Positions 887-5,573 of a stretch of 33,953 nucleotides of DNA are shown piece by piece. The stretch comes from Thermoplasmatota archaeon. Its GTDB lineage: Archaea; Thermoplasmatota; Thermoplasmata; Thermoplasmatales; Thermoplasmataceae. The stretch is taken from the NCBI GenBank assembly GCA_023379345.1, contig JAMCUV010000020.1, positions 1-33,953 of the forward strand. The letters are read 5' to 3'. The notes beneath the pieces are model-generated. The model ran no database searches. It saw nothing but the letters and a program-made list of their open reading frames with translations, and was not told the DNA's origin. The position numbers and the translations under genes are program-made. Numbering within the stretch: position 1 is the stretch's first letter; each line of letters begins with the position of its first letter.

Positions 887-1590
887 TTGGTAAAGCAGTA
901 TGCCTCCTGTCAGGAGGGGTTGATTCCACCACAGTTCTGGCCATCGCCCTGAGCAAGGGATACGATTGCACAGCCATAAGCTTCGATTATGGGCAGAGGC
1001 ACAGCAGGGAACTTGAAGCGTCTGCCAGGGTGGCGGAACATTACCACGTCCAGAGGCATGTGGTCAGGATGAATCTGAATGAAGTCACAAGCAGTGCCCT
1101 GACCGGCCAGAAGGATGTGGAAACCAGGTCGCTGGATCACATAGAGGCAAGCATCCCCAATACATATGTGCCATCAAGGAACATCATATTCCTTTCCATA
1201 GCAGCATCAATGGCTGAATCAATAGGCGCAAACCATATTTTCATCGGCGCCAATGCAGTTGATTTCTCCGGATACCCAGACTGCAGGCCCGCCTTCTACA
1301 ACGCTTTCGAAAATGCGTTGAACATGGGAACAGTGGCCGGAGCAGAAAACCCCTTCAGAATAAATGTTCCCCTGCAATACCTCACCAAGGGAGAGATAAT
1401 AAGAACAGGAATGTCACTGAATGTGCCGTACGAGCTTACCACCTCATGTTACCTTGGCAGAGAAAAAGCATGCGGAAAATGTGATTCTTGCCTCCTGAGG
1501 CTGAAAGGATTCATGGAGGCCAGCATCCCCGATCCGATCCCTTACGAGACCTATCCGGAATTTTATAAAAAATTTCTTGGGAAAAATTAG
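883..1590 (+). CDS. queC: 7-cyano-7-deazaguanine synthase (QueC)
   Basis: PP-loop LLSGGVDSTTVLAIA; C-terminal Zn Cys cluster CYLGREKACGKCDSCLLR. ATG at 883 overlaps the queD stop (ATGA); the ORF track start at 835 is upstream. Confidence 0.93.
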   Translation: MIGKAVCLLSGGVDSTTVLAIALSKGYDCTAISFDYGQRHSRELEASARVAEHYHVQRHVVRMNLNEVTSSALTGQKDVETRSLDHIEASIPNTYVPSRNIIFLSIAASMAESIGANHIFIGANAVDFSGYPDCRPAFYNAFENALNMGTVAGAENPFRINVPLQYLTKGEIIRTGMSLNVPYELTTSCYLGREKACGKCDSCLLRLKGFMEASIPDPIPYETYPEFYKKFLGKN

Positions 1591-2561
1591 TTTTTGGATT
1601 TCAGGAAGTCGTCAACCTTTTTGCAGTTCTCCTGAACTCCCTTAACAGTCTTCTCCCAGAGGGCTTTCTCCTCGGCAGTGAAGTCCATATCGTATATTCT
1701 CTCAACACCGTTTGAGCCTATGCTTATGGGAACGCCGATGAATATGCCTGATGCGCCGTAGTGCTTTGCATGGTCCCCTTCAAGGTAGGCTGCGCATGGG
1801 ATGACTCTGTGTTTGTCCTTTATTATTGATTCTACCATGGCAGTGATGGAGATGCCAGGTGCGTAATACGCGCTTCCAGTCTTGAGGTAGTTCACTATTT
1901 CCCCGCCACCGAATCTCGTTCTCTTCACAATCTCGTCAATCTTCTCCTTTGAAAGAAGGTTGCTGATTGGGATGCCTGAGACGTTTGAGTATCTTATGAA
2001 CGGCACCATGTCATCGCCGTGCCCGCCAATCACGAATGCGTTGACGTCCTCGACCGATACGTTAAGTTCCATTGCAAGAAAAGTCCTGAATCTTGAGCTG
2101 TCAAGTGACCCGCCAAGTCCCATTATGTATTCCGGCTTCACTCCGGAAACCTTCTGGAAAGCATATGCCATTATATCGGCAGGATTTGATACAACCACGA
2201 CCTTCGAATGCGGGGAATATTTCTTGACATTCCTGGCAACATCTGACATGATCTCAAGGTTCTTGTTCAGGAGATCGTCACGGCTCATGCCTGGTTTCCT
2301 TGCAAGTCCAGCCGTTATAACTATGACATCTGAGTTTTCCATATTCTTGTATGCTTCGGGATTTATGGTTGTGAATCCTTTCACCTCAACATCAGTGCCC
2401 CAGTGCGGGCTTCCCTCCATAATATCAAGGCCCTTACCTTCAGGAATGCCGTCTACCACATCGAATAAATATACGTCGCCGAGTTCCTTCAGCGCTATAA
2501 ACTGAGCCACAGTAGCCCCAACATTTCCGGCTCCCACTACTGAAATCTTTTTTCTTACCAT
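1587..2561 (-). CDS. mdh: Malate dehydrogenase (LDH/MDH superfamily, NAD-type)
   Basis: Rossmann VVGAGNVGATVAQ with Asp at the end of beta-2 (YLFDVVDG); TAGLARKPGMSRDDLL with Arg in the substrate-specificity loop; active-site IGGHGDDMVP. Confidence 0.9.
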   Translation of the reverse strand: MVRKKISVVGAGNVGATVAQFIALKELGDVYLFDVVDGIPEGKGLDIMEGSPHWGTDVEVKGFTTINPEAYKNMENSDVIVITAGLARKPGMSRDDLLNKNLEIMSDVARNVKKYSPHSKVVVVSNPADIMAYAFQKVSGVKPEYIMGLGGSLDSSRFRTFLAMELNVSVEDVNAFVIGGHGDDMVPFIRYSNVSGIPISNLLSKEKIDEIVKRTRFGGGEIVNYLKTGSAYYAPGISITAMVESIIKDKHRVIPCAAYLEGDHAKHYGASGIFIGVPISIGSNGVERIYDMDFTAEEKALWEKTVKGVQENCKKVDDFLKSKN

Positions 2562-2774: not shown

Positions 2775-3641
2775 ATGATTCTTGTATATGATGGGTCTGG
2801 CAGTGAAGAGGATATGCTCAGGGAGCTTATGGCTCCCACTGGCATGGAGTTCCAGCTGCTGAAAAAACTGAGCGTCCGGATTCTGGAGGAGGCCAGCCCC
2901 ACCACTTTGATATATTTCGTTGATGGCGGAATGCCAAGTGAGGATGAGAAGCTATTCCTCAAAGAAAAAAGAGAATTCCTCCTCATACTCATGTACAGGT
3001 CCGTTCCAGAAGTGAATGAACGGATAAGATATTCATCTGAGCTTGTGCCCATAGACCCGGACAACATTGATGAGACCCGTGACCGCCTGAGGAAAGCTCT
3101 TTCAAGCCATACAGTCCGGAAGCTCAGGACAATTAATGATACCACAATATACCTGGCCAAGAATGGGCTTTACCCTGGAAACACATATTTCACTAACCCT
3201 GATAACACCGGCCTTTTCACCTCCATGCTCATATCAAAGCATATTGACAGGGACAGATCCCTTGTTGTTTCAAGATTCAATCTGAGAATGGAGATGCCGG
3301 AAATCCTCAATGACAGGAACTTCATCTGGGTGACTGATTCCATCGGAGCGCAGCGGAACCGGCCGGTGAATCTCACATTTATTGTGGATACAATAATCAA
3401 GAGGATAAATGAGGGTTCGACCTACCTGATTTTTATTGACATTTTTGACCTGATGATAGTTTACCATTCCTTCTATGATGTGGCACGCTCCTTTGAATTG
3501 ATAAAGAGCGCCGCAATGGAAAAGGAAGTATACCTGATACTTGTCCTGGGCGAGGAATCCATGGACCACATCCAGTTTGGACAGATTACAAGGTACTGCT
3601 ATGAATGGAGCCCCAGAAAGATAAACGACCTGGAGAGATGA
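2775..3641 (+). CDS. DUF835-domain protein with an N-terminal degenerate receiver-like region
   Basis: C-terminal half fits the DUF835 pattern (STYLIFIDIFDLMIVYHSFYDVARSFELIKSAAMEKEVYLILVLGEESMD). N-terminus MILVYDGSG...TLIYFVDGGMPSED resembles a receiver with a DxxMP motif. ORF track starts at TTG 2754; ATG 2775 preferred. Confidence 0.7.
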   Translation: MILVYDGSGSEEDMLRELMAPTGMEFQLLKKLSVRILEEASPTTLIYFVDGGMPSEDEKLFLKEKREFLLILMYRSVPEVNERIRYSSELVPIDPDNIDETRDRLRKALSSHTVRKLRTINDTTIYLAKNGLYPGNTYFTNPDNTGLFTSMLISKHIDRDRSLVVSRFNLRMEMPEILNDRNFIWVTDSIGAQRNRPVNLTFIVDTIIKRINEGSTYLIFIDIFDLMIVYHSFYDVARSFELIKSAAMEKEVYLILVLGEESMDHIQFGQITRYCYEWSPRKINDLER

Positions 3642-3648
3642 TGCATTC

Positions 3649-5094
3649 TTGAAAATTAGAGAAGGACTGATTGGACTACTTGACAATTTCTTCAGCCAGA
3701 AATTCGGGAAGTCGCTGGTAATCAAGGGTAAGCCCGGTGCGGGCAAGACGACTTTCGCACTTGGATACCTGGAGGGCATCCTTGGAGACACTCCCGTATG
3801 CTATCTTTCATCCAGGTTTTCCGATGATTCTCTTTTTGAATCCTTCCCGTGGCTCAAGGACGTATCCATAAAGAACAGGGAAGCAGGTGCACAGTCAGAC
3901 CTCACATCGGTCAGTACCGATTCACTGCAGAAACTTGAAAGAATGATCGAGGAGGGCCAGATTTCAAATTCCCTCAACAAGGGCTTGATCCTCAACATAA
4001 CGGATCTCCTGCCAGACATAAGATCCATTTATGAGTTTGTAGATGCAAATTTTGGGAACAACCCACTGATTGTCATAGATTCCATGGAAGCCCTGTCAGA
4101 GAAGTACGACATGAGCAGTCTAACGCTCTTTTCCGTCATACATTCTGATCTTGTGGAAAAATCCGGAGCCAATATTATTGCAATTCTTGAAGCCAACGAG
4201 AACCAGAAGCTGGAGTACTTTTCGGATGGCGTTGTATCAATGGATTACTACGTTGATTCGGATTTCCTTGTGAGGAGGGCCACCGTTGAGAAGCTCAGGG
4301 GAGTTTCACTGGGATCTACGCCAGTCTACCTGTACACACTCAAGGAGGGCAGGTTTGACCCGTTCAAGCAAAACCTCATAATATACCCTGAAACCCGCAT
4401 TGCTGTTGAGGCGGGAAAGAGCCATGAGGAATTTGAGGTACCGCTTGATTCGTCCGATCTCCCCAAACTTACCCCAACCGGGTCGAAATCAATTCCCCTT
4501 GGATCTGTGATAATGTTTCACAGGAAAGACAATTCAAACGTTGTCAACGATGTTGTCAACCTGGTAAAGAACAATCTCATAAAAAACGCAATTTCCGTGG
4601 GACGTGGTGTCATTGATGCCACATCCAGCAGCTATGAGACTTCCAGGATACTTGTCAACGTCATGGATCCTGAAACCATGAAACATTACATAACAGCCGA
4701 GAAGTCCAAGAGGGCCAACTCGTTTGTAATTAATCTTGAAGGAAAGAGCATTGTAGAGGATTTCCCCAATGACGTCATAGATTTCTTCATGTCATCATCA
4801 TCCAGGCCAAACCTCTATTTCTTTTCCACGGATTTCCTGATGTTCACGTACGGTCCAGACTTCTTCGGAGACCTGGTTAACCTCATAAACGGCATAAGGC
4901 CCACAGGAGCAACCATAATAATAGCAGATGACGAGTATTACGGCAAAATAAGCCATTACTCAAATCTTGCCATCCATTTCAAGGAAGTCAGTGGCTATGC
5001 GCTGATGAATTCAGCCCCCAGAATCTCCTATGCTGCCATTCCTGAATATGACAAATCACACTGGCCGGACATAAAGCTGTTCGACATTGTGTGA
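3649..5094 (+). CDS. RecA-superfamily ATPase, GvpD/KaiC-like
   Basis: Walker A IKGKPGAGKTTFALGYLE, Walker B NPLIVIDSMEAL, then a RecA/KaiC-type LRG...YLYTLKEGRFDPF strand. TTG start 7 nt after the upstream stop. Confidence 0.75.
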   Translation: MKIREGLIGLLDNFFSQKFGKSLVIKGKPGAGKTTFALGYLEGILGDTPVCYLSSRFSDDSLFESFPWLKDVSIKNREAGAQSDLTSVSTDSLQKLERMIEEGQISNSLNKGLILNITDLLPDIRSIYEFVDANFGNNPLIVIDSMEALSEKYDMSSLTLFSVIHSDLVEKSGANIIAILEANENQKLEYFSDGVVSMDYYVDSDFLVRRATVEKLRGVSLGSTPVYLYTLKEGRFDPFKQNLIIYPETRIAVEAGKSHEEFEVPLDSSDLPKLTPTGSKSIPLGSVIMFHRKDNSNVVNDVVNLVKNNLIKNAISVGRGVIDATSSSYETSRILVNVMDPETMKHYITAEKSKRANSFVINLEGKSIVEDFPNDVIDFFMSSSSRPNLYFFSTDFLMFTYGPDFFGDLVNLINGIRPTGATIIIADDEYYGKISHYSNLAIHFKEVSGYALMNSAPRISYAAIPEYDKSHWPDIKLFDIV

Positions 5095-5117: not shown

Positions 5118-5573
5118 CTACGCTTCCCGTATGGCTGTGATTGCTATTTCCCTGATTTCAACATAATGCTTTGAAACATCGAACGAAGCGTCGTCCAGGG
5201 TGCATATTGCCAGATCCCTTAAAACTGAATATGAAATGTCCAGGAGCCTCCTTATTGATTGGTGCAGGAATTCAGTTTTAGCCTTCGCTATTACTGCAAT
5301 ACGGTTTCCACTGATCTCGAAGCTTATTGCCAGATCCCCTGTGAAGCAGACATTCTCCTTTGATGACATGGCCTGATCCCTGACCTGGGTGAAGCAGTCG
5401 TTTTCCTTTCCTGCACCTTCTATCAACTTGCCAACTTTCTCGGATGGCAGCACTAGTGTTCCCGATGACTGTAACTGATACAATGACCTCAACAGGATAG
5501 TGCTATGAATATCAAAAATATGTTTGATCCTTGAAGCAAGCCTTAGACCTGCAACCCTGAGTACAGCGTTCAA
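5118..5573 (-). CDS. Hypothetical protein, 151 aa
   Basis: Intact ORF between a convergent and a divergent neighbour; no family recognised. Confidence 0.55.
   Translation of the reverse strand: MNAVLRVAGLRLASRIKHIFDIHSTILLRSLYQLQSSGTLVLPSEKVGKLIEGAGKENDCFTQVRDQAMSSKENVCFTGDLAISFEISGNRIAVIAKAKTEFLHQSIRRLLDISYSVLRDLAICTLDDASFDVSKHYVEIREIAITAIREA

Follow-up and report, generated by a model that had tools for sequence, protein, structure and literature searches.

KaiC ATPases and their inactivated homologues were reportedly proposed by Makarova, Galperin and Koonin in 2017 (mBio 8:e01959-17) to be signalling hubs in archaea. Galperin et al. (2018; PMC5847659) described DUF835 as an inactivated KaiC domain (iKaiC) and listed its fusion to a receiver, REC-DUF835 or REC-iKaiC, in Methanomicrobia and Thermoplasmata (their Table 2). 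GvpD, encoded in the gas-vesicle clusters of haloarchaea, reduces the activator GvpE, for which it requires its P-loop (PMC4390858). Receivers in which at least one of the five active-site residues is missing are called pseudo-receivers (PMC12632262). The locus described here brings these elements together in two adjacent genes of a Thermoplasmatota archaeon, within a window of 33,953 nt (the whole stretch of DNA that was analysed). Gene 1 encodes a predicted degenerate receiver joined to DUF835, and gene 2 encodes a GvpD-like tandem ATPase of the KaiC family. The parts of the pair and the REC-DUF835 architecture are already known, and the degenerate, ATPase-locked version is a variant of it. 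The first-pass annotation had called the pair a candidate uncharacterised module; this is correct only in part, since DUF835 as iKaiC and REC-DUF835 had both been published. Among the papers searched, a set exclusive of the 2017 paper on KaiC hubs, we found no report of a degenerate REC-DUF835 protein tied to a GvpD-like ATPase in a family where Response_reg goes undetected. With those hubs the pair shares the combination of KaiC ATPases and inactivated homologues.

The pair forms an isolated unit between minus-strand neighbours (Table 1). Coordinates, strand and the 7-nt gap between the two genes (3642-3648) were as the first-pass annotation had described them. An alternative TTG start for gene 1 lies at 2754, 21 nt upstream. 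The host, an acid-loving archaeon, is represented by an assembly of 1.06 Mb that is 66% complete, in which the pair lies on contig C20 and DUF835 occurs a single time. The product of the gene convergent with gene 2 had just one Pfam match, at chance level, and similar small genes hold its place in many genomes of the host's family. PADLOC assigned the pair to none of its anti-phage defence families.

Table 1. Coordinates of the gene pair, its predicted domains and motifs, and the flanking genes in the window.
Feature	Position (nt)	Strand	Evidence or remark
Malate/lactate dehydrogenase-type gene	1587-2561	-	Upstream of gene 1
Gene 1, 288 aa, predicted degenerate receiver + DUF835	2775-3641	+	ORF, DUF835 match, AF2, orthologues, dN/dS
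Predicted receiver-fold domain, gene 1 residues 1-112, (beta-alpha)5	2775-3110	+	AF2, Foldseek
Asp6 of gene 1	2790-2792	+	Receiver domain
Asp50 of gene 1	2922-2924	+	Unconserved among orthologues
Predicted KaiC/RecA-fold domain without P-loop, gene 1 residues 118-288	3126-3638	+	AF2, Foldseek, Pfam
DUF835 match, gene 1 residues 153-273	3231-3593	+	Pfam
Gene 2, 481 aa, predicted tandem ATPase of the KaiC family (GvpD-like), TTG start codon	3649-5094	+	Pfam, AF2, Foldseek
Walker A GKPGAGKT, gene 2 residues 27-34, first KaiC-like domain	3727-3750	+	Sequence, homologues
Walker B aspartate D144, gene 2	4078-4080	+	Homologues
Predicted second KaiC-fold domain, gene 2 residues 262-481, GvpD_bR2, without P-loop	4432-5091	+	Pfam, AF2, Foldseek
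Gene for 151 aa without Pfam family	5118-5573	-	Convergent with gene 2, then hemB

We assessed gene 1 by profile search, structure prediction and comparison with 27 orthologues. The DUF835 domain suspected at its C-terminus was confirmed with PF05763 (74.3 bits, gathering cut-off 33.1) and was recovered in all 27 orthologues. The AF2 model, for which these orthologues served as input, had a pLDDT of 88 and a pTM of 0.84. Foldseek matched its N-terminal domain to the receivers of KdpE, RR468 and YycF (probability 1.00, target TM-score 0.65-0.67) at modest E-values (~4e-3), and receivers were the dominant single-domain matches; the C-terminal half matched KaiC (3k0c) and PH0186 (2zts), again with probability 1.00. 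The N-terminal domain is therefore predicted to have the receiver fold, in keeping with the layout that the first-pass annotation had seen there. Response_reg (PF00072) matched none of the 27 orthologues at E-values up to 10, and profile comparison of the N-terminal domain with receivers of the same order was not significant (probability 1% for the host's family, 38% for the DHVE2 rows). We base the receiver assignment and ancestry of gene 1 on fold and domain order. Profile comparison between DUF835 and the ATPase domain of gene 2 was likewise not significant (probability 5%). NCBIfam held no family for gene 1, and a sequence search of the PDB returned only the Scone-R entry (E 0.0026) and noise.

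The residues at the receiver active site indicate that the domain is degenerate and that its active site has been lost. Gene 1 carries the literal motifs MILVYDGSG and DGGMP, and Thr/Lys switch residues are missing, as reported in the first pass: Tyr74 stands in place of Thr/Ser and Asp94 in place of Lys. Only the first Asp of the acidic pair is clearly retained (Asp6), with Gly7 second. The DxxMP motif was not conserved; the equivalent of Asp50 was Lys in the same-genus locus L068, Asn in L064 and L071, and Thr in the E-plasma group, and the motif thus provides no evidence of a phosphoacceptor. Several of the active-site residues named in the published definition of a pseudo-receiver are absent from gene 1, but PF00072 does not recognise the domain, and the assignment as a putative pseudo-receiver is based on fold and domain order. 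The bacterial pseudo-receivers of that work (PMC12632262) differ from gene 1, which is archaeal, fused to an inactivated KaiC and unrecognised by PF00072. A Walker A motif (GKT/S) was not found in the aligned DUF835 half of the orthologues, and the Walker-B-like Asp222 was invariant in all 27.

Gene 2 was assigned to the GvpD/KaiC-like ATPases by Pfam, with matches to GvpD_P-loop (99.4 bits, cut-off 24.0), GvpD_bR2 (45.4, cut-off 27.9) and KaiC (PF06745; 29.6, cut-off 26.6). NCBIfam gave KaiC-type matches only, all of them sub-threshold. Among 62 homologues, G27, G30, G32, K33 and T34 of Walker A and D144 were invariant or nearly so. Together with Foldseek, these results upheld the RecA-fold ATPase with complete Walker A and B motifs proposed in the first pass. 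The AF2 model (pLDDT 86, pTM 0.83) matched two-domain KaiC over its full length (E 3e-19, ~510 columns), at low overall TM-scores (0.33-0.38) and a large rmsd, which we take to reflect a difference in how the two domains are placed towards each other; the likeness to KaiC is therefore claimed for the series of domains and not for their arrangement. The two domains did not match each other significantly in profile comparison. Gene 2 shares with KaiC two RecA-type domains in tandem, but its second domain is without a P-loop, so a KaiC-type autokinase is not expected. Gene 2 is most likely a working ATPase, with an active first and an inactive second domain. With haloarchaeal GvpD it has in common GvpD_P-loop, GvpD_bR2 and the Walker A and B motifs, and its homologues adjoin DNA-binding regulators in other lineages, a GvpD-like trait; unlike GvpD, it is partnered with a pseudo-receiver/iKaiC protein instead of GvpE.

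Genomic context suggests that gene 1 regulates gene 2. We favour, with moderate confidence, a reading in which gene 1 is an adaptor that forms, with the KaiC-type ATPase of gene 2, a switch independent of phosphotransfer that acts on a partner. Gene 1 would descend from the archaeal REC-DUF835 response-regulator architecture; as its receiver chemistry and its ATP-binding loop appear to be lost, it could act only as a binding or adaptor subunit. Their RecA/KaiC-fold domains would hold the two proteins together. A protein or small-molecule signal would be received by the pseudo-receiver, which may then bias the ATP state of gene 2, this being the presumed direction of control. The ATP cycle of gene 2 would drive the output, with the complex acting on a partner that, by analogy with the action on GvpE of GvpD, the best-studied relative, would most likely be a transcription factor. 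Winged-helix neighbours in other lineages (see below) suggest that the ancestral output was transcriptional. A more specific form of this reading is possible and more tentative: in these archaea, where neither Response_reg nor HisKA was detected, a former REC-iKaiC regulator would now be the ligand- or protein-sensing subunit of a ring or filament of mixed active and inactive KaiC domains, controlling transcription free of phosphotransfer.

We estimated how tightly the two genes are linked in a sample of 77 genomes of the host's family. Gene 2 was present in 55 of these and DUF835 in 24, and in all 24 DUF835 lay directly upstream of gene 2; a weak KaiC-like match (G094) was excluded from the counts. 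The remaining 31 genomes with gene 2, from seven genera, had no DUF835 match. Gene 1 immediately precedes gene 2 at each of the 27 named loci that carry it, 17 of them from the host's family (including E-plasma and ASS_A1) and 10 from DHVE2/Aciduliprofundum. The pairing exceeds chance. Conservation of the pair across relatives, raised in the first pass, thus holds for every named locus with gene 1 but is not obligate, given the genomes with gene 2 only. The receiver-like fold, DUF835 and synteny, on whose absence that annotation had said its reading would fall, were all recovered, synteny with these exceptions. In a tree of gene 2, both deep clades contain the pair, whose distribution calls for about four changes; this agrees with the pair being ancestral and lost several times, with long branches that leave single nodes unsure.

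Because gene 2 is kept without DUF835 in the 31 genomes, its core job is independent of gene 1, which weighs against the reading that we favour. Gene 2 might then work alone, gene 1 being a dispensable passenger or a relic on its way out of the family. We consider this unlikely. The number of genomes with gene 2 only (31 of 55), the at least 3-4 changes of pair label on the tree, which are consistent with repeated loss, and the degenerate receiver all fit such a history, but where gene 1 is present it always adjoins gene 2 and is strongly constrained. In comparison with a same-genus sequence, dN/dS was ~0.03 for gene 1 and for gene 2, and both genes are under purifying selection. Within gene 1, dN/dS was ~0.01 for the DUF835 domain and ~0.07 for the receiver domain. 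The lowest dN values were those of the DUF835 domain and of the second domain of gene 2 (0.005 and 0.004 at a dS of ~0.5), the latter being the slowest-evolving part of gene 2 among the same-genus sequences compared. The strongest constraint therefore falls on the two P-loop-less, ATP-incompetent domains.

The context of gene 2 homologues in other lineages bears on the output. In DHVE2/Aciduliprofundum, a DUF835 gene preceded the gene 2 orthologue and a winged-helix gene followed it by 7 nt or less (10 of 10 loci). At 23 of the 28 loci outside the two main families, many of them in Methanomassiliicoccales, a gene of this winged-helix family comes next after the GvpD-like gene, and DUF835 is absent. 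The winged-helix genes there (loci L104-L110, L112-L114, L116-L122, L131, L132, L134, L138, L139 and L141) encode 110-150 aa with the motif (I/V/M)P(I/V)AxxYR(R/K), often in two copies. This winged-helix gene was found at none of 42 loci of the host's family, and the partner family had no match in five genomes of the host genus. DHVE2 has a paralogous GvpD-like gene, and at 16 of its 17 loci (L142:1934-5062, L143:994-4128, L151, L160-L167 and L169-L173) a canonical stand-alone receiver gene follows or overlaps it; seven of the 16 carry a DUF835 gene upstream, and two such receivers scored 79 and 88 bits against Pfam. The DUF835 genes of L142 and L143 are themselves preceded by a KaiC-type gene. 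Across lineages, GvpD-like ATPases are thus repeatedly linked to receivers, DUF835 and winged-helix genes.

These neighbourhoods, the matches of gene 2 to both GvpD families and the P-loop-dependent reduction of GvpE by GvpD (PMC4390858) would also suit a gene 2 with the exact role of GvpD. It would then use ATP to remove a transcription activator whose gene lies outside the operon, and gene 1 would be the operon's regulatory subunit. We regard this as doubtful, as the winged-helix family is unmatched in the host genus and no GvpE-like partner was identified. No gvp gene was present among the scanned neighbours of the pair, and gvpA (PF00741) was detected in 0 of 61 genomes of the family, a count of little weight because the control genomes were also without a match.

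Far less probable still is that gene 1 functions as a response regulator, with Asp50 phosphorylated by a histidine kinase encoded elsewhere, and controls gene 2 by way of phosphorylation. Asp6 and Asp50 lie near the expected positions, DGGMP mimics DxxMP, and REC-DUF835 proteins with intact sites do occur in the class. Those from other families of the class (~305-329 residues) scored 85-94 bits for Response_reg and 103-131 bits for DUF835, and the acidic pair, phosphoacceptor, Thr and Lys were all visible; no GvpD-like gene was adjacent in the loci examined. Gene 1 is alike in domain order, DUF835 family and class, and similar in length, but its receiver appears degenerate and it is locked beside a GvpD-like ATPase. 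It also differs in its surroundings. As the first-pass annotation stated, no histidine kinase is encoded nearby, and HisKA was detected in 0 of 61 genomes of the family, compared with 12 of 14 control genomes. Response_reg was found in 0 of 77 genomes of the family, compared with 18 of 18 in another family of the same order (f5). The kinase search was confined to HisKA and HATPase_c; the HATPase_c matches in the host's family covered only part of the model and lay in frames of mostly ~640-690 aa, which we infer to be topoisomerase-type proteins. Substitution of Asp50 and the residues at the switch positions also argue against a working regulator. With the active site missing and neither HisKA nor Response_reg detected in the family, phosphotransfer by gene 1 is very unlikely, and a phosphorelay reading was rejected. 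The first pass had left room for a pseudo-receiver or a non-canonical receiver; the former is favoured over a non-canonical receiver that still works, given the loss or poor conservation of the active-site residues and the lack of a match to either Pfam domain in the family.

A KaiC-type timer, with gene 2 cycling through phosphorylation states and gene 1 as its input, is hardly credible despite the full-length fold match to KaiC and a non-significant KaiA_N match (E 0.029) in one gene 1 orthologue, and we rejected the clock reading because the autokinase of KaiC resides in the second domain, which in gene 2 is without a P-loop.

The adaptor-and-ATPase switch that we favour would mark a possible path from two-component to KaiC-based signalling, as intact REC-DUF835 proteins, GvpD-like genes with canonical receivers and a fused degenerate receiver all occur within one class. 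Such pairs are small systems for testing KaiC-type ATPases as archaeal signalling hubs, and could also serve to test how pseudo-receivers work without phosphate. For GvpD-like proteins outside gas vesicles, pseudo-receiver/iKaiC proteins and winged-helix regulators are suggested as partners.

Some further loci were recorded. The final 38 codons of gene 2 recur in an identical copy on a second contig of the host assembly (G000:C10:6850-6963, minus strand), probably as an assembly overlap or a duplicate. One relative (G011:C3:16189-18389; L018, L028) has both genes of the pair split into several frames with stops, reflecting either decay or assembly errors. A KaiC-family gene of ~227-229 aa follows the GvpD-like gene in L124:6447-7127, L135:6429-7112 and L136:6558-7247; its product starts without a clear P-loop and, in L124, matched PF06745 (59 bits) and DUF7504 (32 bits). 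Stand-alone DUF835 proteins of ~200-226 aa were found in L144:3208-3864, L146:2515-3114, L147:2484-3137 and L148:2461-3141. In three families of the order, the stand-alone DUF835 genes adjoin the same gene, whose product starts with M[V/T][R/K]KP.RMYR and which, by eye, we take to be ribosomal-protein-like.
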